24,969 bases of DNA from a virus. Below are positions 160 to 15,016 of this stretch, piece by piece. How positions within the stretch are numbered: position 1 is the first letter of the stretch; each line of letters starts with the position of its first letter. The notes below the pieces were generated by a model, which had not been told where the DNA came from, ran no database searches, and saw only the letters and a list, made by a program, of their open reading frames with translations. Location of the stretch: positions 1 through 24,969 of the IMG/VR virus record IMGVR_UViG_3300024520_000470; one strand, written 5' to 3'. The translations under genes were made by a program, and so were the position numbers.

Positions 160-1467
160 TCAACCCTTGTCATCATCTTCGTACTCGTGGATGTAGCGAA
201 GTACCGCTTCCGAGAACCCGTCAATGTGGACCCACTTTCCTCGGTACCCGACGCCATTTCTATTTGACGCCACGTTTATGAGATAGGCCTTATCCGCCGA
301 AGGCGTCGCACCACCAGTCTGGCTCTGCTCATCGGTGATCACAATCAGGCGGTCGCACCTATGTCGGTTCACATGGTGTATCGCCCCACGTAGGTCAGTC
401 CAACCATGCCGCTGACTGTTGATAATTGCTTCCACACCAGCCATGCCTTTACGCGGCGGAACTTCAACCGCCCCATACGAAAATGTCCACAGCCGCACAT
501 CCCCCGGGATAATGGCCCCAAGGGTTGCCGCTGCGTCCATGCGAGTAAGGTCTGAACGGCTAGAAAGCGGATAGTTCATAGACCCGCTAACATCTATCAG
601 CACGTGAGTCTTACCAACGAGTGGCGTAAGCTCATTGATGCAGTCACACAGTGCTTGGTCAATGTACGGCTCATAGTGCGGGACAGCTCGGGCGGCAGCG
701 GTGTACCTGAACGGCAGAACCCTTCGGGCTCCCTTCCGTGCAAGAATGGCAAAGCGTACCAGTTCCTCGTCCACGCCCGCCTTGTCCATGTTCCGCAGAT
801 TACGGAGCAAAGCCATGTACCCAAGCTTCTCTTCCATGAGCAGCCGGGTGAAGACTTCCTTCTTGTCCTCACCAGCCGATAGCGCCACTTCCCAGGTGTC
901 CGGCGCTTTAAGCTCACCTTCTGCCAGTTTCTGCCAGACTTCCCCCTGTTCCCCATTCTTCGGGCGGGGGTGGCACATAAACATAACGTCACGCAGCTTA
1001 ACGGCCCCGTCACGGTTATATTTGGCCAGTGCGTAGGCATCAAACTGGTTAAAGGCCTTGGCCAGCCCCTTTTTAAGTTGAGCGGCTATGGGGCATCTAC
1101 CGTCGGCCCAGTACAGAGCTAACAGCTCAGTCATTTCATCCGGTCGTTGGACAATTTGGCCGATGTATTCTGCGACGCTGAAGTTGGTCATCTGCTTATT
1201 CAAAGCACCCAGAATAAGTAGAAGCGGAACATGCCGCAGATTCATATCAATGCGGGCTTCCAAGGCTAGATTCATAATGTTCTGCCCCGGCACATGCTCA
1301 CATAGCTGAGATATTCTCTCGGCTATTGACTCGCCATCCTCGTAGAATTCCTTTTCCCACAGTAGGCAGGACAGGACAGACCGACGCAGTTGTTCTTGAG
1401 GGGAAAGACCATGAACGGCTTTTCCCCCCTCTGCGGTATAAGATTTTTCTTTAACATTTTTTCGCAT
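160..1467 (-). CDS. rsr: TROVE domain protein, Ro60/Rsr orthologue (435 aa)
   Basis: Ro60 proteins are ring-shaped RNA binders that hold Y RNAs and misfolded RNAs and can pass them to exonucleases. The N-terminal ~280 residues are an all-helical TROVE ring; the C-terminal part is a von Willebrand A domain with an intact MIDAS: DVSGSM at 292-297, T357-D358 and D379. The open frame extends back to 1584, but that extension (SGVRVPPSR, GVAQLGRAH) is a readthrough of tRNA-like sequence. The ATG at 1467 has a GAGGTG Shine-Dalgarno a few bases upstream and is the better start. The Y RNA-like element at 1486-1621 lies immediately upstream on the same strand, as rsr and Y RNA genes commonly do. Function in the phage is inferred; the family call is firm. 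Confidence 0.93.
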   Translation of the reverse strand: MRKNVKEKSYTAEGGKAVHGLSPQEQLRRSVLSCLLWEKEFYEDGESIAERISQLCEHVPGQNIMNLALEARIDMNLRHVPLLLILGALNKQMTNFSVAEYIGQIVQRPDEMTELLALYWADGRCPIAAQLKKGLAKAFNQFDAYALAKYNRDGAVKLRDVMFMCHPRPKNGEQGEVWQKLAEGELKAPDTWEVALSAGEDKKEVFTRLLMEEKLGYMALLRNLRNMDKAGVDEELVRFAILARKGARRVLPFRYTAAARAVPHYEPYIDQALCDCINELTPLVGKTHVLIDVSGSMNYPLSSRSDLTRMDAAATLGAIIPGDVRLWTFSYGAVEVPPRKGMAGVEAIINSQRHGWTDLRGAIHHVNRHRCDRLIVITDEQSQTGGATPSADKAYLINVASNRNGVGYRGKWVHIDGFSEAVLRYIHEYEDDDKG

Positions 1468-1485
1468 AGCGCACCTCACAATGAA

Positions 1486-1621
1486 AGTGGGGAACAGTCG
1501 AGAACAGATAACATAATGCGCTCTACCCAACTGAGCTACCCCCCGGATTGCCCGGGAGGGAGGGACTCGAACCCCCGACCTCATCCTCCAAAGGGAAGTA
1601 ACTGTTTTCTACACCACCACT
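1486..1621 (-). ncRNA. YrlA-type Y RNA with circularly permuted tRNA-like module
   Basis: Read 5' to 3' on the minus strand: a T arm (stem 1576-1572/1564-1560, loop TTCGAGT 1571-1565), an acceptor-like stem (CCTCCCGG 1559-1552 with CCGGGGGG 1546-1539) closed by the loop GCAAT, so there is no free CCA end, then TA, a D arm (GCTC 1536-1533, loop AGTTGGGTA, GAGC 1523-1520). The anticodon-stem position is made from GGATG (1586-1582) and CATT (1518-1515). Further out GAAAACAG (1609-1602) pairs with CTGTTCTC (1507-1500) in 7 of 8 positions, and AGTGG (1621-1617) with CCACT (1490-1486). Thus the RNA ends sit where a tRNA anticodon arm would be. This is the arrangement described for bacterial YrlA RNAs that bind Ro60 and mimic tRNA. 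Exact 5' and 3' ends are inferred; no U-run terminator follows, so processing from a longer transcript is likely. Confidence 0.8.
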
Positions 1622-3516: not shown

Positions 3517-3932
3517 AGGTCTCTCCTAAGAATGGTCCTTATAATCTCGTTCCACTGAAAAGGGTAGGACCAAACAATTCCCCCTTCAGCGTGTATTCCT
3601 TTTTCCTTTACCTGCGGAGCCCTGTGTCCCGGCCAAAGGTATATGTCATCTATCGTGGTGCCGTTTGCCCGCTCCTGCTTCTTTCTAGCCAAGATCCAGG
3701 TCTTACCCCCCACCCTAGTTCTTCGCCAATGCCATGCCACCTGCTCGGGGGACAACTTGACTCGGTTGCCGTCTACTATCTTAGTCTCTACCCAGCACTC
3801 TCGTCCCGCATCACATATATTTACATCGGGAATACCTAACCCCGTGCCCCCAGTTTCTATGCGTTGGTAGTCAATATCTGGGGGTAGATGGGACTTTACT
3901 AGACCCCAGAAACTAGACTCAGGACCACTCAT
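3513..3932 (-). CDS. PD-(D/E)XK nuclease, VRR-NUC-like (139 aa)
   Basis: From MSGPESSFW the core reads E5, GIPD (D36), then WVETK (E49-x-K51) and SPEQ (Q64): the E...D...ExK...Q order of the PD-(D/E)XK superfamily, closest in look to VRR-NUC and phage Holliday-junction-resolvase-like nucleases. Such enzymes cut DNA with metal ions and may trim recombination or replication intermediates. Three Met starts exist (3986, 3941, 3932). I chose 3932 because GGGGGA lies about nine bases upstream and because the longer forms read deep into the polymerase gene. It still overlaps the polymerase end by 14 nt. Confidence 0.75.
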   Translation of the reverse strand: MSGPESSFWGLVKSHLPPDIDYQRIETGGTGLGIPDVNICDAGRECWVETKIVDGNRVKLSPEQVAWHWRRTRVGGKTWILARKKQERANGTTIDDIYLWPGHRAPQVKEKGIHAEGGIVWSYPFQWNEIIRTILRRDL

Positions 3933-5898
3933 TCTTTGCATTCCCCCAGTTTTCACCAAACTCGCAGTCGATAAATATTGGAACAACTAGCTCAACCGCG
4001 GTTCTCATAATTTCCTCTACAATAAGGTACTTTTTCTTAGAGCCGATAGAAACATCCAGCTCGTCGTGCATTTGGTTCAGGGGTATAATACCCTCTTTAT
4101 ACAGAAGATACATAGCCGCCTTTGTTTGATCGGCAGCTCCGCCCTGGATGAGCTTATTCATAGACTTATGGGTCTTGGCCCGCTTTATATTCTTAGTTTG
4201 AAAGAACTCCACCGCCTCATCATAGCCCCGTATCAGCTTAGGGTAGCGAGTAAACTCGTTCTTCTCATAAAACGGGAACCGGCCCCTACGGCCGAGCAAT
4301 GTTTTGATCCAACCCCGCTGCTGCGCCTTAGAATCACATAGGCTGGACAGTCCTTTAATGAATGGAACCTTTTGGTGGTAGGTCTCCATCATGTGCTTGC
4401 CCTCTGGACCAGCAACTTCAAAGGAGCCTGGAGTTCCTGCCTCCACCTTTTCCCAACCCTTCTTCCCACGCAGTATCCATTCAGTGGGCAGCCCTAGTTT
4501 GGCACATAGTAAGGGCGGACCCATACCGTAAGCTACTCCCAGGTTTATTTCTTTGGCGTCGGCCCGGCTGAGATTCGTGAAGTCCGCAACCATTTGGTGA
4601 TAATCCGTATCGGGGTCTTCGTTGTAGCGACGGACTGCTTCTTCTGCCCCATCTTGGTGAGTAATGTAGGCATAATGCACGGTGAGACGTGGTTCTTGAG
4701 CCTTGTAATCGAACGCTCCCCAACGTTCACCCTCTTCTGGTAGAAACATTCCGCGAACATGTGGTGAGAACTCGGCATCTCTGCCCGTTGCCTGCTGTAG
4801 ATTTGGATTTCGGCAACTATATCGTCCTGTGATCGTCCCACCGCTCTCTCCCTTTAGTTGGCAAAATTCAGGGTGAACCCGGCCCTTATAATAGTGCTTC
4901 TCCATCATACCCACAAGAAAGGTGTTGATGGTCTTGTCTAGCTTTCGTAGATGACGTATAGCACCACCAAGAGGATGAGTAAGCCCTTCCAGGAACTCTT
5001 TTTTGAAGCTGGGGGCGTTGGTCTTTGGGGTCCGTGGATACGGCAATTTATGGCGGTCAAAGATTTGTGCAAGAGACTCCGCCGACCAAATATCGACATA
5101 CAGACCGTAGTCCCGTTTGATAGCCTTAAGCTCCTCGGCTTTCTGCGCTTCAAGAAGTTTCTTTACCCTCTCTGCTTTATCCATATCAATACGGACCCCC
5201 TGCCGACACATTTCAAATGTGAGGGGGATAATATTCATTTCTAACTCAGCAATTTGGTTGAGGTCTTCTTCGTTAAATATTTCTAGAAACCTGTCCCTTA
5301 ACGGGAGAAGCACAGCGGCATCCTGTTCAGCATATGGCCCCACGAACCTCGGGGGCATCCGCCACATATTTGCCTTCAACTGCTTGGTAGTCTTCAGCCC
5401 CCATGCCGCGCCAGCTTCCCGCAAGAGGGTCTCATCCTTACCCTGCCCTATGAAGTCCTTGGCCACAGCATCAAGGTTATACTCCAGCCTATTCTCGTCA
5501 GCTAGGGAGGCCCCCAGCCCCGTATCAAAGAAGGGACCACTTACTTCAATGCCCTCTGTTCCCAGCCACCCCATATCATAGCTGGCATTGTGAAACAGTT
5601 TTAGTGTCGGGGTCTTGCACACATCCTGAACATACCGCTTCACCTGACCTAAGTCAAGATTACCCCCCGCTTCATGCCGCACTGGGAGGTAGAGCTTCTG
5701 AATATCCTTGCCCTTCTGAAAGGCCAGACTTATCCCAGCTAGGAACCCATCATCCCTAGACCACCCTGGACCAATGTCCGTGATATGGGGGTCGTAGGTT
5801 TCTGTATCAATACCAATTGCCGTAGCCCCGGAGGGGTCGGGGAAGGACTCTGGTGGAACCCAGTCAGACGGAGGTTCAAACAGTGGTATTTGTATCAC
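3919..5898 (-). CDS. polA: Family A DNA polymerase with 3'-5' exonuclease (659 aa)
   Basis: The phage replicative polymerase. Exonuclease motifs: DTETY (D31, E33), FHNASYD (D108), YAEQD (Y189, D193). Polymerase motif A is DYKAQEPR (D397, E402), motif B is R445-x3-K449-x3-L453-x3-Y457-G, motif C is MHDEL (H611-D612-E613). No 5'-nuclease domain is present; the length is close to the phage norm. At the position of E. coli Phe762 the residue is Leu453, which affects nucleotide discrimination and rate in other family A enzymes. A roughly 40-residue stretch after motif B (about 465-505) looks like an insertion. The start is GTG at 5898 with only a weak Shine-Dalgarno, overlapping the HTH gene. Confidence 0.95.
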   Translation of the reverse strand: MIQIPLFEPPSDWVPPESFPDPSGATAIGIDTETYDPHITDIGPGWSRDDGFLAGISLAFQKGKDIQKLYLPVRHEAGGNLDLGQVKRYVQDVCKTPTLKLFHNASYDMGWLGTEGIEVSGPFFDTGLGASLADENRLEYNLDAVAKDFIGQGKDETLLREAGAAWGLKTTKQLKANMWRMPPRFVGPYAEQDAAVLLPLRDRFLEIFNEEDLNQIAELEMNIIPLTFEMCRQGVRIDMDKAERVKKLLEAQKAEELKAIKRDYGLYVDIWSAESLAQIFDRHKLPYPRTPKTNAPSFKKEFLEGLTHPLGGAIRHLRKLDKTINTFLVGMMEKHYYKGRVHPEFCQLKGESGGTITGRYSCRNPNLQQATGRDAEFSPHVRGMFLPEEGERWGAFDYKAQEPRLTVHYAYITHQDGAEEAVRRYNEDPDTDYHQMVADFTNLSRADAKEINLGVAYGMGPPLLCAKLGLPTEWILRGKKGWEKVEAGTPGSFEVAGPEGKHMMETYHQKVPFIKGLSSLCDSKAQQRGWIKTLLGRRGRFPFYEKNEFTRYPKLIRGYDEAVEFFQTKNIKRAKTHKSMNKLIQGGAADQTKAAMYLLYKEGIIPLNQMHDELDVSIGSKKKYLIVEEIMRTAVELVVPIFIDCEFGENWGNAKNEWS

Positions 5899-6094
5899 GC
5901 CTGTACAATCTTACCTCGTAGCCCAAGAAGTTCGCCCAGTCTACGAATTGAGCTAGGCTGATGACTGGCTTCTTGCGGTTCCAGTTCCGTATGGTACGCA
6001 TTTCATAGCCGGTACCTTCAGCTAGCTCAAGAGACCCCAGCTTGAATATGCTAGTTGTCCTCTTCAGCATGAATATTAGCTCATGCATCTGCAT
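5876..6094 (-). CDS. XRE/Cro-like HTH protein (72 aa)
   Basis: A single-domain DNA-binding protein. Residues ~19-40, LGSLELAEGTGYEMRTIRNW, read as helix 2, turn and recognition helix of a lambda-repressor-like fold; SLAQFVDWANFLGYEVRL is the typical fourth-helix end. Starts are possible at 6094 and 6088; AGAGGA lies about 11 bases before 6094. It sits directly before the polymerase gene and overlaps both neighbours, so it may regulate this operon, or may assist at an origin. Its target is unknown. Confidence 0.75.
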   Translation of the reverse strand: MQMHELIFMLKRTTSIFKLGSLELAEGTGYEMRTIRNWNRKKPVISLAQFVDWANFLGYEVRLYRRDTNTTV

Positions 6095-6482
6095 GTCTGT
6101 TACTGTCCTCTCTTGTGGGTCCAGGTACCAACTGGTTCTTATGCCGCGCTATTTCCTTGTCCATTTTAACCTGTAAGACGTGCGCCTCAACGAGAAGCAG
6201 GTAGCGCCGTAGATCCTGTATATCGTCTAGCAGCCCTTCGGGCCTTTTATCCTGGTCCAAGGCTGTAAAGATATTGAAACCAGCTTTGTTTTCTACCTGC
6301 TCTTCAATACGGTCCCACTTGCGGGCGAGCATCATATAGGCCCCGACGCCCCCGCGCTTCTTCCACGAGGAAGCGTATTCTAGGTCCTTGGTAGTGGTTA
6401 TGTCAGCGTCGGCAAACTGTATTTCAGGTATGCGCTGATGATAATTAAACTTTGGGTCGTCTATGTTGTTTGTCAGCGGCAT
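6081..6482 (-). CDS. DUF1599/Nmad1-type protein (133 aa)
   Basis: From MPLTNNIDD the protein holds EYASSWKKRGGVGAYMMLA (36-53), RKWDRIEEQV (54-63), then LLDDIQDLRRYLLLVEA (84-100). The order Y/F-x-SSWKKRGG, K-x-DR, LxDxxxDLRxY is that of the all-helical domain called DUF1599 or 'nucleotide modification associated domain 1', common in phages and predicted to act in nucleotide metabolism. The ATG at 6482 has AAAGGAG eight bases upstream; the longer frame to 6566 only overlaps the TS gene. It follows the thymidylate-synthase gene (38-nt overlap), which suits a role in nucleotide supply. The precise reaction is unknown. Confidence 0.7.
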   Translation of the reverse strand: MPLTNNIDDPKFNYHQRIPEIQFADADITTTKDLEYASSWKKRGGVGAYMMLARKWDRIEEQVENKAGFNIFTALDQDKRPEGLLDDIQDLRRYLLLVEAHVLQVKMDKEIARHKNQLVPGPTREDSNRHADA

Positions 6483-7464
6483 TCTTAGCTCTCCTTTTGA
6501 TCCATTCTTCACAAGCAAGTCTCCAGTCGGTAGCGCGTATATCTGCGGCCATGCTGAGCGCACCACCCAAGTTTTTTTCTTTAACCTGATTCCAGGCTAG
6601 CCTCATAGGTGTTGCTACTTCAAAGAAAAAAGGGTTGTCTGCCGACCACCCCACTGAACCCGTCATCCACTCTAACAGATCTCGGTACCATGATTCAGGG
6701 TTATGCACCATCGGGTAGGGCTTGCACTGACCTATATCATACGGGTTACGGGGAGCAGGCTGGGGAGTGCCCACAGTGGCCAAAATAGCCGTGTAGGCGT
6801 GGTAGTCGTTACTTATTTGGGTGTACGTACCCAACGGCACCCCGACCATACTGGCAACGTACTCATGCAGCATCGACATGTGCACCGCGTTCGCCCCATA
6901 GGCCCCCCATATGATGTCATTGCTTCGGCAGCACACCGTCATGTCAAGCTCTATGCGCTGCTCATGGCGCATATCTCTATGCCGTATACGGAAGAATATA
7001 GTGGTGTTGCAGGGAGTATCTATTTTGTTGGCAAGAAGGTCACTGTTGCCGTCCCACATTGCCAGAACACAGCGGCGGGAGTTTGGGTCTCTTTTTAGAA
7101 TACCTATAATCACATCTATCTGATCATAGTCAAACCAGTGACGCCATCTGTGGCCATAGGCTCCCCAGAACTTTTTACCATCATCACTAAATTGGCCGAA
7201 CTTACTGTTATATCGTTCTATCCACTTTACATCATTCCGGCCCGCCAGCATCCACAGACCTTCCATAAAGTGGAAGAATGGGTTGGCATTGCGCTTTTCA
7301 TCAAACAATACCCGCTGGTCGGAGTGAAGGTAGACTGTGGAAACTGGGTCTGGATAGGTAAGACATTCGCCCGCCCTGCTCGGTCTGACGTCACCAGATT
7401 CTAATAACATCCTGAGACCCACGGTGTAGGCCTCATTGACGTTAAGTGCGTGTAGAGTCCTCAT
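6445..7464 (-). CDS. Thymidylate synthase homologue (TS or dUMP hydroxymethylase, 339 aa)
   Basis: The TS fold is plain: NANPFFHFMEGLWMLAGRND (59-78), the Arg pair SRR (130-131), catalytic Cys152 in DTPCNTTIFF, CCRSND (178-183), GANAVHMS with Asn192, and NDYHAY (H222, Y224). Asn192 aligns with the Asn that selects dUMP over dCMP, so the substrate is probably dUMP. The product may be dTMP or, with water as final acceptor, hydroxymethyl-dUMP; the sequence alone does not decide. Lying next to modification genes favours the second as a hypothesis. The ATG at 7464 with GGAAG upstream is preferred to a TTG at 7536. The start overlaps the glycosyltransferase gene by 23 nt. Confidence 0.88.
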   Translation of the reverse strand: MRTLHALNVNEAYTVGLRMLLESGDVRPSRAGECLTYPDPVSTVYLHSDQRVLFDEKRNANPFFHFMEGLWMLAGRNDVKWIERYNSKFGQFSDDGKKFWGAYGHRWRHWFDYDQIDVIIGILKRDPNSRRCVLAMWDGNSDLLANKIDTPCNTTIFFRIRHRDMRHEQRIELDMTVCCRSNDIIWGAYGANAVHMSMLHEYVASMVGVPLGTYTQISNDYHAYTAILATVGTPQPAPRNPYDIGQCKPYPMVHNPESWYRDLLEWMTGSVGWSADNPFFFEVATPMRLAWNQVKEKNLGGALSMAADIRATDWRLACEEWIKRRAKNAADKQHRRPKV

Positions 7465-8224
7465 AAGCTTTCTTCCATGAAATACGAACGTCGGTGCGAA
7501 TTCCTCCGCCCCACGAACTTTTGGTTTCTTTGGCAACTACTTTTACAAAACCGGGGTGTAGATTAGCAAGTTCATAACTGCACCGGGCCATCATTTCTTC
7601 ATCACGATAGGCAGCACATCCCCCCTCTTTTTGACTTCCGGGCTGGTTGTGGGCGTAATTGAACATGATTAGATTAGGGTGGCCAGCTCTTAGAAGTTGC
7701 AGGGTCATGTCAAAGTCTTGCTTAGTGTCAATACGATCAAAGCGGGCGCCGATCTTTGTTACTACCTCGACATCGTAGGCAAGAACCCGCATCATGCGGC
7801 CTACTTCTTGCGTGTACTCAGAGACCCGGTTATTTCCTTCTCTGGCGCTTATCCCCACATGTGTCCAGTCATTAAGGTGCCCTTCTACTTCGGCAATCAT
7901 ATTTTCAAGACCTTCAGCGCCTAATGGGAGCAACCTTACTTCCATTGGCTGCCCTGATCTACCACTAAAGGTTAGATCATCATCCATAAGGATGATCTTA
8001 TCCGCCGGGGTGTTATAGAGAAGATGTTGTCGAGTAGGAGATAGCATAGTTATATCAGCCGGTAGAATTCTGATATTAGCGTCTGGATGGGCTTTATAAT
8101 ATGCCTCTGCTTCCTTTTCTTGCACCACAAGCCAGACATTAGGTGCGTATCTAGTTTCCATTAGAGCTTTTAGGGTTGGTTGAGATCCTGCTCTTCCCGA
8201 GCTATGTATGTAGATGTTTAGCAT
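7442..8224 (-). CDS. TET-associated-type glycosyltransferase (TAGT-like, 260 aa)
   Basis: N-terminal MLNIYIHSSGRAGSQPTL, then VWLVVQEKEAEAYY, LSPTRQHLLYN (61-71) and the DxD-type metal/nucleotide-sugar site IILMDDDLTF (77-86, DDD at 81-83). This layout (S-x-GRA at the start, R-x-x-L-L-Y ahead of a MDDD strand) is that of the TAGT family, a GT-A glycosyltransferase predicted to add sugars to modified DNA bases in phages. The ATG at 8224 has GGGAG eight bases upstream and lies 2 nt after the radical SAM stop; a GTG at 8239 is less likely. Context with the radical SAM and TS genes supports a base-modification role. The sugar and acceptor are unknown. Confidence 0.8.
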   Translation of the reverse strand: MLNIYIHSSGRAGSQPTLKALMETRYAPNVWLVVQEKEAEAYYKAHPDANIRILPADITMLSPTRQHLLYNTPADKIILMDDDLTFSGRSGQPMEVRLLPLGAEGLENMIAEVEGHLNDWTHVGISAREGNNRVSEYTQEVGRMMRVLAYDVEVVTKIGARFDRIDTKQDFDMTLQLLRAGHPNLIMFNYAHNQPGSQKEGGCAAYRDEEMMARCSYELANLHPGFVKVVAKETKSSWGGGIRTDVRISWKKAYEDSTRT

Positions 8225-8226
8225 TT

Positions 8227-9186
8227 TTATTTCTCCCACGGTCTAAGGACCGGCTTTGTCATTGGTTCTCCACTGCTCGCCCAGTCAACTGTTTTTCGGT
8301 CATCAGCGGTTGGTACAGGGAGGTCCTGTTTTCCGACCTTATCAGGCAGGATACCAACCCTGAAACTTGTGTTGTCACAACCTTTACAGGGGCCAAAATT
8401 CCGGTCTCTATGGTAAAGGTGTTTTCGGGCGGCATCAAACGCGTCATTATTCCAGATCTCCTCTAGGCTGCCATCGTCGATATTTCCGGCCTTGTAGATT
8501 CCCCGCCAATCGTTGCAGCACAGCATCACTTGTCCGTCGTAACGTATGGCCATTTCCCGGAAGGGACGAGCGCAACGTTTCGCAAGCGGCTCCACCAAAG
8601 TAGGAAGTCCTGCGCCACAATGGTTATTGCCGATTTTAGTCCCCACCCTCTGACCTGTAAGAACTGCCTCTTCCATATCTTCCATAATGAAGATCCTCTG
8701 GCGCGACGCCTTAACTTTCGTATAAGGGCTTTCCTTTTTACTTGCATTGCTGTAGTCCCAGATTTCGACCGCATTGTACCCCCTGACCTGTTCTATCGCT
8801 TTCGCTGAATCTTTATAAGCGTCAAGAGCCAGTATATTGAGTCCGGCGTCGAATAGTCGACTAATATTGGCGTGGACGCCAGGAGGCTTAAGAAGCGGTG
8901 TTGCATTGCTCGTCACCATTAAGTGAGTTTTAGGAAGATTGCGCCTGAAGATATCGATAATAGCGACGCTGTGGGGGTTCATCAAAGGCTCCCCGCGCAA
9001 AGCAAACTCTATCTTGCTGTTCCACCCCGAGTCACTTATTTCCCCCGCTATATGGACCGCAGTTTCAAGGTCCATGAATTTATAATCACCGCGGGCCTCA
9101 CGGATACCCTGAATACCACACATCCCACACCGGAAATTGCAGCCCTCGGTCATTTCTAGCTTTATCGTATTCGGGGCATCCTGCAT
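8227..9186 (-). CDS. Radical SAM/SPASM-domain enzyme (319 aa)
   Basis: The radical SAM cluster site is C16-NFRC20-GMC23 (CxxxCxxC), followed by LRGEP (63-67), the GGEP-like SAM-binding motif. The C-terminal half carries further Cys residues at 190, 205, 223, 224, 267 and 270 (AKRCARPF, VMLCCNDW, GPCKGC), the pattern of a SPASM domain with auxiliary Fe-S clusters. Such enzymes make carbon radicals to rearrange or link atoms in a bound substrate. Radical SAM proteins occur in phage clusters for thymidine hypermodification, and this gene lies between the HMUDK-type and glycosyltransferase genes. Peptide or tRNA substrates cannot be excluded. The ATG overlaps the stop of the small membrane peptide (TAATG). 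Confidence 0.88.
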   Translation of the reverse strand: MQDAPNTIKLEMTEGCNFRCGMCGIQGIREARGDYKFMDLETAVHIAGEISDSGWNSKIEFALRGEPLMNPHSVAIIDIFRRNLPKTHLMVTSNATPLLKPPGVHANISRLFDAGLNILALDAYKDSAKAIEQVRGYNAVEIWDYSNASKKESPYTKVKASRQRIFIMEDMEEAVLTGQRVGTKIGNNHCGAGLPTLVEPLAKRCARPFREMAIRYDGQVMLCCNDWRGIYKAGNIDDGSLEEIWNNDAFDAARKHLYHRDRNFGPCKGCDNTSFRVGILPDKVGKQDLPVPTADDRKTVDWASSGEPMTKPVLRPWEK

Positions 9187-9296
9187 TATGTTAACAACCC
9201 CATCAGCATCTTATTAATGACCGCGACCAAACCGTTTCCTAGTGCCACTCCGGCCGCAATTATAATCACCGCCGTAAACACCTCATGACTTTTCAT
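9186..9296 (-). CDS. Small single-pass membrane peptide (36 aa)
   Basis: Reads MKSHEVFTAVIIIAAGVALG, then NGLVAVINKMLMGLLT: a short polar head and one continuous hydrophobic segment of about 25 residues. The ATG at 9296 lies inside the end of the upstream gene, with AAGGAG 11 bases before it. The stop overlaps the radical SAM start (TAATG), so it is part of the operon. Function unknown; it could be a holin-like or inhibitory micro-protein, or an anchor. The longer frame to 9377 lacks a ribosome site. Confidence 0.55.
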   Translation of the reverse strand: MKSHEVFTAVIIIAAGVALGNGLVAVINKMLMGLLT

Positions 9297-10146
9297 GTCT
9301 GTACCTGCTCCTTGGTCTACCTTGGCCGTTTTTGACCCGTTCATATTTATCGAACTCACACAACTGAAACTGAACATCGTGTAGTGCTAAGTCGCCCAAT
9401 CTTCCTGGCCAGTGAGCTACCCTCGCCTTATACAGCTCTAGCATCTCTTCCATATAGATTCGCTCGGGCCGCTTTTGGTCAAAAGGCCTGACCATTATTC
9501 TGTTTAAGCCCCGACGTGCTCCAGGACCAACTGGGCACCATGTATTCAAGTCTTTTATCTTTGGCCAGATTGCACAATGAATAGCATCCTGCATCACTTC
9601 CTTAGCCATAAACCCCGAACCGCCAAAACCTTGGAGCACCCGCATGTGCTTGATTATAGCCTCCCAGGACTCAGTATTTAACCCAACTTCAACAAGTGTT
9701 GAACAAGCATCCCAGAAGGGCTTCAGGAACATATCCACTACGACTTCCTGCTTAGGTGCCGAAATACCTTGATTAGTGATGACATACGCCCCTGTGAAGA
9801 CCTTTTTCTTATGGGCCATCATCATAGCTGCCACAGCCTTAATCCGGTTTCTGGTCTCTAGATCAAAGTCATACTGGTAGCCAATTGCTTCGGCAAACTC
9901 CATTGTCCCAAAGTACCGGAACAGGGCGCAGTTAAAAAGCTGAACATGGGCGGGCTGGCCGAGGTTCTGGTTGGTCCAGTTATCCCGCATCCAGCGTGTA
10001 GTGCGATCGTCCTCCCTATGGACGTTGGTGAATTTATATTCCTGGAGTATCTTATCATCGGTCCAGGGCCACGGCCTTCCCGCTTCCTTATTTAGACGTG
10101 TACTTTCCCGCTTAACCATAAAGGTATAGAAATCTTCAGTCCTCAT
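9283..10146 (-). CDS. HMUDK-helical/aGPT-PPlase-type base-hypermodification protein (287 aa)
   Basis: The N-terminus has RESTRLNKEAG, PWPWTDDKILQEYKFTNVH (25-43) and REDDRTTRW (44-52). This F-T-N-V-x-RE-x-D signature after PWT-x-D marks the helical domain found in 5-hydroxymethyl-dU DNA kinases and in alpha-glutamyl/putrescinyl-thymine pyrophosphorylase-like proteins. Those act after replication on 5-hmdU in phage DNA, phosphorylating it or replacing its pyrophosphate with an amine or amino acid. No P-loop kinase domain is visible, so this is the stand-alone helical type. The ATG at 10146 is chosen over 10185 because the longer form reads back through the preceding zinc-binding gene. Exact chemistry is inferred. 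Confidence 0.72.
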   Translation of the reverse strand: MRTEDFYTFMVKRESTRLNKEAGRPWPWTDDKILQEYKFTNVHREDDRTTRWMRDNWTNQNLGQPAHVQLFNCALFRYFGTMEFAEAIGYQYDFDLETRNRIKAVAAMMMAHKKKVFTGAYVITNQGISAPKQEVVVDMFLKPFWDACSTLVEVGLNTESWEAIIKHMRVLQGFGGSGFMAKEVMQDAIHCAIWPKIKDLNTWCPVGPGARRGLNRIMVRPFDQKRPERIYMEEMLELYKARVAHWPGRLGDLALHDVQFQLCEFDKYERVKNGQGRPRSRYRHEKS

Positions 10147-11172: not shown

Positions 11173-12651
11173 TTATAGATGAAAGCAGTAATTCGTGTCA
11201 GGAAGAATTATGTGCAAATTTTCCTTTACCCGTGTCAGGCCAACATAGAAAACCCGGCATTCATCCTCGGGATATTTTTCCATATTGTCATATGTTCGCT
11301 TGGCCATATCAGAAAATAGGATGACATTATCAGATTGACCACCCTTGGCGCTGTGTATTGTGCTCAGGGTTATACGCGGAGGTTTAGCTAAATCTTCTCC
11401 CCGGCGCAGTGCGGCCAGATAATACAGTCGCTCTTCCATTGCCATGTTGATAAATGCGTCATGCCATATTTCTTTTGTTTGGACCCCCCACATTTCCCGC
11501 AATTGGGAAATATTGACTTCTGCCCACTTTGGGGGTATCTGTGGGGAGCGCCGGGTATTGGCCACCATCTTCATTACATCGCGTGCCTGCATAGGGGAAA
11601 CTGAACCCCCTTTACGCATGTGTTCCCACTGCCGAATAGTGTTGATCGTTTTCATATTAACCGAAGGTTTCTGCCGGATGGTGTAGAGCAGACCTTCCCT
11701 ACGGCATTTCTCTTCTATTGGTTCCAGCAAGAATGAGTTCCTCACCAATACCAGCCATTCCCCCGTACTCATATCGATACTATCAGGGGCAACGTGGTAT
11801 TGCAGAGAGCCCACAGCCGGTCGAGGGCTCCACTCCTTTGCCCTGCGGTGCTTTACACCCACAATTGCCTGGAGGGCTGCTGCCTGTGGCGCTGTGGGCA
11901 CCCTGTACGACTGATCCAGCACTGTTACGGTGCCCTGTAGGTTTATAAAGTGCTCGACGTCGGCACCCGCCCACCGGAAGATCGCTTGGTCATCGTCCCC
12001 AGCTATAATCACCCTATCAGCCCTTCGGGCCATTTTCTCCTGCACCTGCCACTGTAGCTTTGAAAGATCCTGTGCTTCATCCACCACCAGTAGACTAAGG
12101 TGCACGGGATCAATTCTGTCTAGGTACATGTAGAGCATATCCGTAAAGTCAATAAGGCCCCGCGTATCCTTGAACTTCTTTAGGCCCGAGGCAATCCATT
12201 CTACCTCTGCCCACTCCAAGCCATCGTCATCTTCCTCCCACTGCTCCTTTAATTCAACGCACCGGATACGAGCCAGCGAAGCCATGAACAGCGCCCGGTC
12301 TCCCCGGGACAAGGTGTTGAATAAGCCGTCTTCACTGGAGGCATACCCGGATATCTTTATGCCCATGATCTTGCCAAATTCCCGTAGAGCGCTGGGATTA
12401 AGAACATGGTCCTTTTTCAAGCCCAGTGCCCTGAAGGCTAGGCTGTGAAAGGTTCTGAAGTACGGAAGTTGATCTGCGCGCAGCGCAAAGGATTCCATGG
12501 ACCGTGTGACCGCTTCATCTGCTGCCTTACGGGTGAATGCCATATAGGCTATTTCCTGCGGGCTGGAACCGTCGGCGATGCTCTGCTTTACCTCGTTAAT
12601 TAGGAAGGTAGTCTTGCCCGTTCCAGGCGGACCCAGGATAATTTCATTCAC
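11173..12651 (-). CDS. UvrD/Rep-type SF1A DNA helicase (492 aa)
   Basis: Walker A GPPGTGKT (7-14), motif Ia YMAFTRKAADEA (36-47), motif Ic RTFHS (66-70), Walker B VVDEAQDL (189-196), motif III GDDDQAIFRWAGAD (218-231), then STIHSAKG and VFYVGLTR in the last 80 residues (motifs V and VI). These are all the SF1A motifs; it is shorter than bacterial UvrD. Such helicases move 3' to 5' on single strands and serve replication, repair or recombination. The start is GTG at 12651, overlapping the primase stop (GTGA), which couples the two proteins. Confidence 0.93.
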   Translation of the reverse strand: MNEIILGPPGTGKTTFLINEVKQSIADGSSPQEIAYMAFTRKAADEAVTRSMESFALRADQLPYFRTFHSLAFRALGLKKDHVLNPSALREFGKIMGIKISGYASSEDGLFNTLSRGDRALFMASLARIRCVELKEQWEEDDDGLEWAEVEWIASGLKKFKDTRGLIDFTDMLYMYLDRIDPVHLSLLVVDEAQDLSKLQWQVQEKMARRADRVIIAGDDDQAIFRWAGADVEHFINLQGTVTVLDQSYRVPTAPQAAALQAIVGVKHRRAKEWSPRPAVGSLQYHVAPDSIDMSTGEWLVLVRNSFLLEPIEEKCRREGLLYTIRQKPSVNMKTINTIRQWEHMRKGGSVSPMQARDVMKMVANTRRSPQIPPKWAEVNISQLREMWGVQTKEIWHDAFINMAMEERLYYLAALRRGEDLAKPPRITLSTIHSAKGGQSDNVILFSDMAKRTYDNMEKYPEDECRVFYVGLTRVKENLHIILPDTNYCFHL

Positions 12652-14183
12652 AGTGTGTCCTCCTGCATATCCGGCAGGTCATACGGTTCTGTCTGTTTTT
12701 CCTGTTCTTTAATATGCCAAACATTTATACCCTTTCCCTTAATATTGAAGAAATACGGCTTCCCTTCAAATACGTCGCTTTGTAGGCGCGTGATTATTTG
12801 AGTCCTTGTCAGGTACTTGAAGTTGTTCCGCACCAGAAACTCTTCCAAGGAGGATAATTTGAAATACACCCGTTTGTGCCCGGTGCTGTCCGGGGAGTCC
12901 CCTTCCCATGCTTTGCCAAGAGCCACTTGGTCTCGCGAGTCTGCGGTGTTCCTGTGGGCATCCGTACAGAATTTTGCCACAAGCTCTGCAAAGTGTTCCG
13001 CCAAGCCGCCATCCTTTGGCTTTGGGAGCATGTCGCAGGAATTCATTAGTGTCTGTATTATAGAAGTCCACTGCTTGTCTGACATCCGTGGGGGCATCAG
13101 GTTGAGGCTGTTCATGCAGGCCCGTTGAAACAGTGTCTGGTTCTGTAGCTGTTCCGTTGAAAGTTCCAACCGGGAACTGTTCACATCTAAGAACCATATT
13201 GGTTGATCAGTAGGAAGCTTTGCCAGACCGGATAAGGTGGGTATAGAAGATCCCCCTATGCCGAACTTGCGGGTGCGACACAGAGCTATATTACAGAAGT
13301 TGCAAATAGGTTGATCGCTGCACTTGTACCCATAGTCCTTCTTGGCCAACTGCTTTATGACAATCGTTACCTCTTTAGACTCAAGCGGTGGGTCCATGAA
13401 AAGGTTATTGAACTCGTCTACCTTAGCTTCCCAACTGTCCGAAAAGGCAGAACGGGCGTACACTCCCAGATTGAACAAGCCATTATTTCGTGTGCCATCA
13501 GGGAAGCCTTGCCCCACAAGTGTTTGAAGGCAGGGTGGTCCGTCATTTAGGGCTTGGTTCTTTTCTATTACAAGATCATCTAGCTCACCTTCAGTAACCT
13601 TGGCGTCTTCTGCCGCTGACAAGAAGGCCCGTAGCGGCATAGCTGCCCCATTCTCATCAAGCGCATACCGGGTAGTGTTCTCTCCCCCAAAATAGGGCAT
13701 GTTCAGCCAATTTCCCATATCCCCGCGCTCCACTATCAAGGTGGTTTGCTTTGGGAATATTTCACACTGAGCATACCCCAGATTAGCCGCTATCTCGGCT
13801 AATTTATCCTGGACCTTTTTGGCTTCGACAGGCTCGATGAAAAACATCATTAGGTGGCAGCCGCCAGACTTAGATCTAAACGGAATAAGTGGTAAATCCT
13901 TCTTGTATACCACCTTGGCAAAACTAGAGACATCGAAGTTTACGTATTCATCAATATCTATTGCCCCCCAGTAACATTGATTATCCTGGTTTATCGGGAC
14001 AATGCCAACGGAGTATTCTGCCCGGACGTGCTGCTCCCATAGATCTAATGTCGCTGGTTCTTTGACCGTTCTTCCCTTGCCCTTTTTCTTTCCTGAAGCG
14101 TTGGTCGCCGCTTCTGTTTCATATGTTCCATGGACGTCCTTAAATCCCTGGAAGAGCAGCATTAACTTTTCTACATCCGTCAT
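12648..14183 (-). CDS. Archaeo-eukaryotic-type primase (AEP, 511 aa)
   Basis: The catalytic region has WGAIDIDEY (72-80; D76, D78), IPFRSKSGGCHLMMFF (100-115; S106 and H110) and CEIFPKQ, then NWLNMPYFGG. The DxD...SGGxH order is that of AEP primases, and the flanking text resembles the family annotated as TOTE-conflict-system primase. Around residues 290-305 a cluster C-x5-C-x2-C-x4-C could hold zinc or Fe-S; a PriCT-like helical part with GTRNNGLFNLGVYAR precedes it. It would make primers for the family A polymerase. No DnaB-type helicase domain is fused; the SF1 helicase follows by GTGA overlap. ATG start after GGTGA. Confidence 0.85.
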   Translation of the reverse strand: MTDVEKLMLLFQGFKDVHGTYETEAATNASGKKKGKGRTVKEPATLDLWEQHVRAEYSVGIVPINQDNQCYWGAIDIDEYVNFDVSSFAKVVYKKDLPLIPFRSKSGGCHLMMFFIEPVEAKKVQDKLAEIAANLGYAQCEIFPKQTTLIVERGDMGNWLNMPYFGGENTTRYALDENGAAMPLRAFLSAAEDAKVTEGELDDLVIEKNQALNDGPPCLQTLVGQGFPDGTRNNGLFNLGVYARSAFSDSWEAKVDEFNNLFMDPPLESKEVTIVIKQLAKKDYGYKCSDQPICNFCNIALCRTRKFGIGGSSIPTLSGLAKLPTDQPIWFLDVNSSRLELSTEQLQNQTLFQRACMNSLNLMPPRMSDKQWTSIIQTLMNSCDMLPKPKDGGLAEHFAELVAKFCTDAHRNTADSRDQVALGKAWEGDSPDSTGHKRVYFKLSSLEEFLVRNNFKYLTRTQIITRLQSDVFEGKPYFFNIKGKGINVWHIKEQEKQTEPYDLPDMQEDTL

Positions 14184-14198
14184 TCACCATCCCCAGAC

Positions 14199-14227
14199 AA
14201 AATATCCCGGCCACTGGGGCCGGGATA
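14199..14227 (-). terminator. Intrinsic terminator
   Basis: TATCCCGGCC (14227-14218), loop CCAGT, GGCCGGGATA (14212-14203): a perfect 10-bp stem followed by TTTT (14202-14199) on the minus strand. It sits in the 62-bp gap after the ssDNA-binding-protein candidate and before the primase. The U-tract is short, so partial readthrough into the primase gene is likely, which would set a lower level of primase than of the upstream protein. Confidence 0.78.
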
Positions 14228-14245
14228 CCTGACAACTTAGTGGAC

Positions 14246-15016
14246 TTACATAACTTCGGGATCGGCGGACTTATACTCGGTCTTGACGTCACCTTCGCTG
14301 ATACTGCGATGGAAGGCTTGGGCGATTTTGAAGATGTCTATATTGTCGACAACCTTTGATGTTTCCCACGCCCAGCTACACCAGTCGCCCTGCTCGTTGC
14401 TTTCATCTATGGTCCTCAGGTTATAGATTCTGCTATAACTGGGGGCCTGAAGATCGGGCCTACCCGGAACCTTCTGCTGGTTGATATAAGCACACCAGCG
14501 GCGACTAACTTTTAACTGAGTACTTGACATGGCGATAAGAGCTGGCTCCGTGTACCCCTCGTCACCAATAATGAGGACGTAATGCTCACTGGTTGGGGTT
14601 AGGATATTACCGTCCCCGGTTACGTCCCGACCACGAGAGTCAGGTTCTGTCGCTGGTATGTTCGGATCGCCCCGTTCGTATGCAGCAACAAATCCGCCAC
14701 CGCTATCACGGGGCTTCCACAAAATCTGCTTAAAGTGGTGATGACACGGAATTACAAACAGACCCTCGTTTTGCTCCCATAGCTCCCCGGTCACCGTATT
14801 CATGATCATGCCTTCTTGGGCACCTTCAATGTACTCGCCATCCTTGCGGGATAGCTGCGGTGACATTTTCTGCAGAACACGCAGAAACGGAATAGCCATG
14901 TCGTCACGATCAAAATTGGCGCCTTCACCCGCCGCCTCAATCATGGCTGATGATATATCTTCCGCCACCGCTACTTCAGTGCTTTCTTCTTTAACTTTCG
15001 CTGGTGCTTTCGCCAT
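14246..15016 (-). CDS. Probable phage ssDNA-binding protein (256 aa)
   Basis: A Lys/Glu-rich N-terminal 20 residues lead to DDMAIPFLRVLQKMSPQL, EGMIMNTVTGEL, FVIPCHHHFKQIL, then SSTQLKVSRRWCAYI and SYSRIYNLRT. The order IPFL-x-x-x-Q-x-x-SPQ ... G-x-x-x-NT-x-TG ... is that of an abundant phage family usually lying with primase and polymerase and often annotated as single-stranded-DNA-binding. The C-terminus is mildly acidic. Position upstream of the primase, separated by a terminator, supports high expression. AAAGGA lies nine bases before the ATG at 15016. The function is inferred from the family and the context. Confidence 0.65.
   Translation of the reverse strand: MAKAPAKVKEESTEVAVAEDISSAMIEAAGEGANFDRDDMAIPFLRVLQKMSPQLSRKDGEYIEGAQEGMIMNTVTGELWEQNEGLFVIPCHHHFKQILWKPRDSGGGFVAAYERGDPNIPATEPDSRGRDVTGDGNILTPTSEHYVLIIGDEGYTEPALIAMSSTQLKVSRRWCAYINQQKVPGRPDLQAPSYSRIYNLRTIDESNEQGDWCSWAWETSKVVDNIDIFKIAQAFHRSISEGDVKTEYKSADPEVM

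Follow-up and report, generated by a model that had tools for sequence, protein, structure and literature searches.

The stretch analysed here (the window) is the whole of IMG/VR virus record IMGVR_UViG_3300024520_000470, positions 1 to 24,969, and yet a fragment of a phage genome. On its minus strand lie five adjacent genes, which the original prediction, made from the letters and a list of open reading frames (ORFs), had taken for a compact thymidine-hypermodification island; their adjacency and positions are confirmed in the window. They are transcribed in the order HEL (P0005, of the HMUDK_hel family), rSAM (P0004, a radical S-adenosylmethionine (SAM) protein), TAGT (P0003, a predicted DNA glycosyltransferase), TS (P0002, a thymidylate synthase homologue) and NM1 (P0001), followed by a 72-aa ORF and a family A DNA polymerase. 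From rSAM onward the genes almost touch or overlap, the TAGT start lying 2 bases past the rSAM stop, the TS start inside TAGT and the NM1 start inside TS. The island belongs to a modular family in which HEL and TS are constant and the slot between them holds a kinase or a glycosyltransferase (GT), never both. It is read here as a kinase-free, glycosyltransferase version of phage 5-hydroxymethyldeoxyuridine (5-hmdU) hypermodification that includes oxidation of the sugar by rSAM, a reading to which a probability of about 0.5 is assigned.

In the proposed pathway, P0002 would convert dUMP to 5-hydroxymethyl-dUMP, to be polymerised into phage DNA, a step suggested by a shared motif and by synteny. 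HEL may then grip or flip 5-hmdU in the DNA and offer the base to the adjoining transferase, its partner being a P-loop kinase in M6-type phages and TAGT here, an exchange that is observed among relatives. TAGT, to judge from its family, would attach a sugar to the 5-hydroxymethyl group. Finally, rSAM, given its fold and cysteines, could abstract a hydrogen atom from a carbinol carbon of the sugar and pass an electron to a four-Cys auxiliary cluster, leaving a putative ketosugar or one of its derivatives. It is probable that glycosylated 5-hmdU is made without a kinase; that rSAM acts on the sugar added by TAGT is given even odds, and a ketosugar as the end product is suggested tentatively.

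Partner exchange among related islands

Relatives were collected in four IMG/VR scans, with the rSAM alignment (69 loci), HEL (best 80 of 585), TAGT (best 80 of 269) and TS (best 80 of 592). The samples are biased to window-like sequences and 10-kb flanks, and families missing from the VIA-align lists were not counted as excluded. Among these best matches, TS was accompanied by HEL in 77/80 loci, by TAGT in 41, by rSAM in 12 and by a kinase in 8; HEL was accompanied by TAGT in 44/80 and by a kinase in 3; and 71/80 TAGT loci held HEL. The 69 rSAM loci had HEL in 42 cases, TAGT in 44 and a kinase in none. Merging of the 289 loci at 80% identity gave 112 clusters with one representative each, 89 with both HEL and TS and 23 without HEL or TS in the stretch.

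Strict GT counts comprise TAGT, families f13 and f21 and a TAGT-rSAM fusion in locus L015; families f28 and f99 were left out. By profile, f13 is GT-B-like (GlgA, E 1.3e-4) and f21 is related to f13 with 91% probability, while f21 searched against PDB by profile gave no match. A GT assignment for f28 was rejected at an hhalign probability of 2.5% to f21. Across the 89 clusters, 68 have a GT without a kinase, 9 a kinase without a GT, 12 neither and none both (Fisher p 4.6e-7; p 1.1e-9 with f28 and f99 also counted as GTs). The exclusion is also seen for TAGT alone (p 0.009): 9 clusters have just the kinase, 37 just TAGT, 43 neither and 0 both. TAGT is thus present in 37/89 clusters, or 38 with the L015 fusion.

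A HEL tree of 97 rows (short search; rows below 200 aa dropped; 33/94 inner branches weak) requires at least 8 changes of the kinase/GT label, and for the kinase group well supported branches make 6 of these unavoidable; partner type requires 32 changes and rSAM presence 21. The HEL of the window groups with that of L075 (59% identity, the nearest row; SH-aLRT 86); the L075 contig has the same flanks, with a P-loop kinase occupying the HEL-TS slot, which in L079 is taken by a GT-B-like gene. In loci L233, L267 and L279 TS follows HEL, and the stretch examined contains no gene recognised as a transferase. In L075, the kinase-bearing relative of the window, a gene at 13987-14670 between HD and NM1 is sulfotransferase-like by eye.

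Pfam names three M6 proteins HMUDK_HMUD1 (gp54, PF18748), HMUDK_hel (gp55, PF18723) and ADDT (gp51, PF18724). Thymidine hypermodification of the M6/YuA and Pam3 type involves a 5-hydroxymethyluridine DNA kinase (5-HMUDK), an amino acid:DNA transferase (ADDT), a pyridoxal phosphate (PLP) enzyme and a radical SAM protein, with 5-(2-aminoethyl)deoxyuridine (5-NedU) as a product. The gene order of the window matches that of Pseudomonas phage M6/YuA (gp54 kinase, gp55 HEL, gp58 TS, gp59 HD, gp62 polymerase) and cyanophage Pam3 (kinase, HEL, Nmad5, TS, deoxynucleotidase, NM1, polymerase); the TS homologue, HMUDK_hel and the neighbouring DNA polymerase are shared with both, and NM1 with Pam3. Unlike these phages, the window yielded no PF18748, PF18724, gp52-like PLP enzyme or gp53-like radical SAM protein, and has TAGT and a BtrN-like rSAM instead.

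Searches for the kinase and its transferase recovered their positives: PF18748 (positives M6, Pam3 and L075) was absent from the window, the sister record L004 and the L005 record, PF18724 (M6 and Pam3) was absent from the window, and a seven-member kinase alignment that recovers M6, L075 and L122 had no window match. The remark of the original prediction that no P-loop 5-hmdU kinase is seen in the window therefore holds for this genome fragment. HEL is not a marker of such a kinase, because relatives carry TAGT or a GT-B-like gene in the slot and because Brevibacterium phage LuckyBarnes has HEL without a kinase; its complete genome encodes TS, two TAGTs and HEL in a row and has no match to PF18748, PF18724 or the kinase alignment. 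An M6-like route, with HEL serving a kinase in the unsequenced part of the genome and thymidine bearing both an amino-acid-derived group and a sugar, would agree with the Pfam name of HEL, given after the kinase, and with the fragmentary state of the window. The mutual exclusion of kinase and GT across clusters makes it very improbable, as do the LuckyBarnes genome and the absence of a kinase-alignment match from 12 of 13 long rSAM records (34-115 kb); the thirteenth, G026, has one weak partial match in a 419-aa frame (E 3.4e-4, 15.9 bits).

Co-location of HEL, TAGT and TS near a DNA polymerase has already been reported in pelagiphages, whose set comprises TS, aG/PT-PPlase1 (equivalent to HEL), a 5'-deoxynucleotidase and a beta-glucosyl-HMC-alpha-glucosyltransferase (equivalent to TAGT; PMC9599517). 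The portions of that paper used for this comparison report no rSAM, unlike the window, and discuss neither kinase/GT exchange nor the HEL fold. The literature searched yielded no mention of kinase/GT exclusion or exchange, nor of a BtrN-like step.

The target base, HEL and the glycosyltransferase

P0002 belongs to PF00303 (E 1.1e-20) and phrog_5131 (E 5e-107) and shares the motif RSNDxIWGAYGANAVH with M6 gp58 (46% identity). In the TS family, Asn versus Asp at the recognition position decides between uracil and cytosine. P0002, M6, LuckyBarnes and L075 all have Asn in this column, as does phage SH-Ab 15599, whose enzyme is annotated as a dUMP hydroxymethylase; the enzyme of a T4-like Klebsiella phage that is annotated as a dCMP hydroxymethylase has Tyr there, with Asp just before it. 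Since the M6 motif and the Asn column are shared, 5-hmdU is the likely product of P0002, in agreement with the dUMP specificity that had been predicted for it. The alternative of a cytosine target, in which 5-hydroxymethyldeoxycytidine (5-hmdC) made by the TS homologue receives its sugar from TAGT in the manner of T-even phages, has a slim chance of being correct. T6 TAGT acts on glucosylated 5-hydroxymethylcytosine (5-hmC) according to the part of PMC13216743 drawn on here, a dCMP-hydroxymethylase was predicted by the LuckyBarnes authors (PMC6588365), and a CMP 5-hydroxymethylase is the PDB entry closest to P0002 in sequence. These points are set against the Asn, not Asp, of P0002, a loop and motif like those of M6 gp58 and the annotated dUMP hydroxymethylase, and the known company of HEL, which is 5-hmdU.

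P0005 matches PF18723 with E 3.5e-37 (128.7 bits, cut-off 25), and its start at ATG 10146 agrees with its relatives, which start at the equivalent place. Its AlphaFold2 (AF2) model, built from 63 rows (predicted local distance difference test, pLDDT, 94.3), had no Foldseek match at E<=0.001, and no sequence match to DNA-glycosylase-like proteins was found. In a second-look structural aligner the top entry was PUGT (8z2m), the glycinyltransferase of phage PaMx11 (Z 10.2, 4.3 Å, 220 residues), of which M6 gp51 is a sequence relative; it was followed by a DUF2419 queuine salvage enzyme (Z 9.7), Mag1 (Z 9.2), Ogg and AGOG, the top rows being nearly all of one fold group. Sixteen residues are invariant across 64 HEL rows. 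The structural matches hint at a fold of the DNA-glycosylase-like group, and it is from their consistency that a role in base presentation is proposed.

P0003 matches PF20691 (E 1e-14, 55.4 bits, cut-off 27.5) and phrog_842 (E 1.4e-50), and its acidic metal-binding motif (Table 1) is invariant in 6/6 TAGT rows; a sequence search of PDB with TAGT returned antibody noise only. The T-even TAGT, a beta-glucosyl-HMC-alpha-glucosyltransferase of the same family, differs in adding glucose to an already glucosylated cytosine, and solitary TAGTs of undefined role occur in 288/753 genomes (PMC13216743, as far as the text used here extends). The HEL-TAGT-TS module may partly explain these solitary TAGTs.

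Further tailoring genes occur in related islands. In L005 and its relatives, an FkbM-type methyltransferase (PF05050) and a GT61 protein (PF04577) lie between HEL and TS. Possible sugar donor genes near HEL-rSAM islands are a nucleoside diphosphate (NDP)-sugar epimerase (PF01370; L028:15814-16773) and a cytidylyltransferase/mannose-6-phosphate isomerase (PF01467/PF01050; L049:6428-7459). These genes fit a theme of sugar decoration.

The radical SAM protein and its candidate substrate

P0004 combines PF04055 and PF13186. Its C16, C20 and C23 form the CxxxCxxC motif for the SAM cluster, and C205, C223, C267 and C270 are assigned to a four-Cys auxiliary cluster; all seven, together with an additional Cys224, are conserved in 43/43 phage rSAM rows, and in the profile alignment the cluster cysteines, the auxiliary four included, line up with those of BtrN. 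Against PDB, the profile of the 43 rows matched BtrN with E 1.1e-25, followed by NifB with 5.7e-6. The AF2 model of P0004 (pLDDT 94.5) superposes on BtrN with Z 25.6 and 2.4 Å over 237 of 246 residues, ahead of ChlB (Z 15.8), SpeY (14.6), BlsE (14.1) and DesII (13.6), and Foldseek gives E 7.8e-14 for BtrN against 5.4e-7 for the best other match. In the model, the fold is nearer BtrN than other twitch/SPASM radical SAM proteins. BtrN, the 2-deoxy-scyllo-inosamine dehydrogenase of butirosin biosynthesis, oxidises a cyclitol ring alcohol, and the passage of PMC9012708 relied on here gives the four-Cys auxiliary cluster as one difference from MoaA. P0004 departs from BtrN in its ~20% identity, the invariant Cys224 and its phage setting.

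Neither the radical SAM nor the GT profiles pointed to a pathway for peptides or surface sugars. The TAGT family consists of DNA glucosyltransferases, and for P0004 the NCBIfam models of radical SAM enzymes that modify peptides, including ribosomally synthesised and post-translationally modified peptides, fell far under their cut-offs (best 49.4 bits versus 250). The generic SPASM domain model alone nears its NCBIfam cut-off (21 versus 27).

Across the island family, rSAM is an optional addition, usually beside a GT. It occurs in 46 clusters, 38 of them with a strict GT and none with a kinase, and in 31/41 clusters <=200 bases separate rSAM from the closest gene of the GT class (TAGT, f13, f21, f28 or f99). 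The L015 fusion is a natural ORF of 579 aa between HEL and TS (L015:3324-5063), with TAGT at residues 1-261 and rSAM at 249-579. When 84,980 prokaryote genomes (GTDB) were scanned with a pattern, rSAM turned up in two contigs only, both binned as Patescibacteria and both carrying the island HEL, TS and HD, one with TAGT and FkbM in addition and the other with f28 (L302, JAHCSE010000026.1, and L303, JAGWWT010000024.1); both are probably phage contigs, so rSAM looks like a phage family. Beside rSAM in L005 lies an acyl-carrier-like protein (L005:9687-9980; PF00550, E 7e-7) with Asp-Asp at the expected phosphopantetheine Ser site, Ser being the usual attachment residue of the acyl-carrier motif.

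The same distribution bears on a simpler alternative, in which TS, HEL and TAGT make a plain glycoside of 5-hmdU and rSAM has some other role, for instance on a different nucleotide, on tRNA or on a protein, or stands outside the pathway as an accessory. HEL-TAGT-TS without rSAM is indeed the commonest form (66/80 TAGT-query loci, best 80 of 269, have HEL without rSAM), and rSAM also lies beside TAGT in TS-less records. The short distances between rSAM and GT-class genes, the L015 fusion and the two GTDB contigs, where rSAM comes with HEL, TS and TAGT or f28, speak against it, and this alternative is considered unlikely.

MilA of the mildiomycin pathway is a TS-like hydroxymethylase. Oxidation by rSAM of a sugar already on the base would resemble, in logic and not in membership, the mildiomycin and blasticidin pathways with their hydroxymethylase (MilA), base-glycosylating GT (MilC/BlsD) and sugar-altering radical SAM enzyme (MilG/BlsE), where, in the sections of PMC3715490 consulted for this parallel, the GT adds glucuronic acid to cytosine and BlsE/MilG alters that sugar. 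Those enzymes differ in acting on free cytosine or CMP, BlsE is a decarboxylase, and its fold reaches a Z of only 14.1 with P0004.

The original prediction had envisaged a base both glycosylated and chemically rearranged. Glycosylated 5-hmdU is well supported by the M6/Pam3 synteny, the frequency of TAGT among the clusters and the dUMP-type TS; the case for a rearranged base is weaker. Since rSAM is nearest to the alcohol dehydrogenase BtrN and accompanies GTs, not the kinase/amino-acid route, an oxidised sugar is the better fit. Were rSAM instead to act on the 5-hydroxymethyl group of the base, giving 5-formyl-dU or a rearranged base, TAGT would serve other residues. BtrN-type chemistry is alcohol oxidation, 5-hmdU has a primary alcohol, and the M6 modification cluster holds a different radical SAM-family protein, gp53; the BtrN substrate is however a secondary ring alcohol, and with no kinase route in any of the 46 rSAM clusters and rSAM fused to and adjoining GTs, such base oxidation appears improbable.

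Several observations weigh against a kinase-free pathway with oxidation of the sugar by rSAM. Within HEL+TS clusters, the association of rSAM with a strict GT falls short of significance (26 both, 4 rSAM only, 42 GT only, 17 neither; p 0.12), since most of these clusters have a GT in any case; the rSAM-GT link therefore rests on adjacency, the fusion and the rSAM+TAGT loci without HEL or TS. PF00303 is found nowhere on 12/12 IMG/VR records (9.5-95 kb) that have TAGT next to or near rSAM and no TS nearby (L006, L007, L008, L016-L018, L060-L063, L066 and L074), and HEL was not found in three of them checked over their full length, so that the rSAM-TAGT pair can also function in a different context, where its target may be a different base. 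The HEL score of Z 10.2 is middling for a helical protein, and helical folds can reach such values by chance. GT-class membership of f28 is unsupported by profile. As the window is a genome fragment, a kinase may lie elsewhere in the genome; within this fragment, neither an NDP-sugar gene nor an enzyme plainly consuming a ketosugar was recognised. The chemistry of the pathway is, moreover, predicted from sequence, synteny and models. In ten of the 12 TS-less records (all except L063 and L066) an SPL-type radical SAM gene lies nearby; a likeness of that in L006 and L008 to M6 gp53 is weak (19-24%), and a pathway link is not claimed.

Neighbouring genes and biological meaning

Record L004 is a near-identical sister contig whose proteins are 99-100% identical to those of the window, and megablast among 50,697 phage records found no close relative of the whole window. 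Four of the labels first given to the island genes (HMUDK_hel, radical SAM/SPASM, TAGT and TS homologue) are borne out by profiles well above curated cut-offs. The fifth, DUF1599/Nmad1 for P0001, is abandoned: Pfam and NCBIfam give P0001 no family up to E 1, and PF07659 has no match at that level in the window and six related records. P0001 is instead an orthologue of Pam3_54 (45% identity) and represents the NM1 family, present in 122/228 loci. A TS-NM1 fusion in LuckyBarnes gp41 is not claimed, as a two-sequence search scored the NM1-profile match at only 9-12 bits.

Directly upstream of the island are two tandem Tad2-like genes (Thoeris anti-defence 2-like, PF11195; 10296-10508 and 10508-10738, minus strand). 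The window also encodes a Ro60/TROVE-domain protein (PF05731, E 4.7e-19; 160-1584, minus strand) and a TOTE archaeo-eukaryotic-type primase (PF22548, E 6.9e-15; 12648-14183, minus strand).

Table 1. Genes of the island and its downstream neighbours, with window coordinates.
Feature	Position	Strand	Evidence
P0005, HEL, HMUDK_hel PF18723, 287 aa from ATG 10146 (ORF open to TTG 10185)	9283..10146	-	Pfam, AF2
Short 63-aa ORF overlapping the P0005 end, with a hydrophobic C-terminal half; probably an accessory gene or no gene at all	9186..9377	-	ORF list; no Pfam family
P0004, BtrN-like twitch radical SAM protein, 319 aa	8227..9186	-	Pfam, profile versus PDB, AF2
P0003, TAGT PF20691 DNA glycosyltransferase (predicted), DDD motif D81-D83	7442..8224	-	Pfam, phrog_842
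P0002, 5-hmdU-type thymidylate synthase homologue, predicted dUMP hydroxymethylase	6445..7464	-	Pfam, phrog_5131, motif
P0001, NM1 family, unnamed conserved phage protein by TS and DNA polymerase; likely start ATG 6482 (ORF open to GTG 6566)	6081..6482	-	Pam3_54 orthologue
72-aa ORF, family f27, conserved slot between NM1 and DNA polymerase	5876..6094	-	Locus comparison
Family A DNA polymerase with 3'-5' exonuclease, end of replication/modification block	3919..5898	-	PF00476, E 2.4e-40

Taken at its widest, the proposal is of an undescribed DNA base, a 5-hmdU sugar oxidised on DNA by a BtrN-like radical SAM enzyme, within a plug-in system where HEL serves exchangeable kinases and GTs; it is advanced as a possibility, short of an even chance. 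If true, the "kinase helical domain" would be a general adaptor for 5-hmdU in DNA, solitary TAGTs, listed as undefined in current literature, would gain a role, and radical chemistry on a DNA-bound sugar would join the known DNA modifications. The core HEL-TAGT-TS claim is directly testable in LuckyBarnes, a cultured phage with a complete genome. A carbonyl-bearing DNA sugar would lend itself to labelling, and it could escape defences based on recognising or stripping off plain glucose. Protection from restriction is established for other modified phages, and the modified base would here impede restriction enzymes and perhaps also defence glycosylases that take off sugars. Most likely, a sugar-bearing modified base replaces part of the thymine in this phage, and it would probably shield the phage from bacterial defences.

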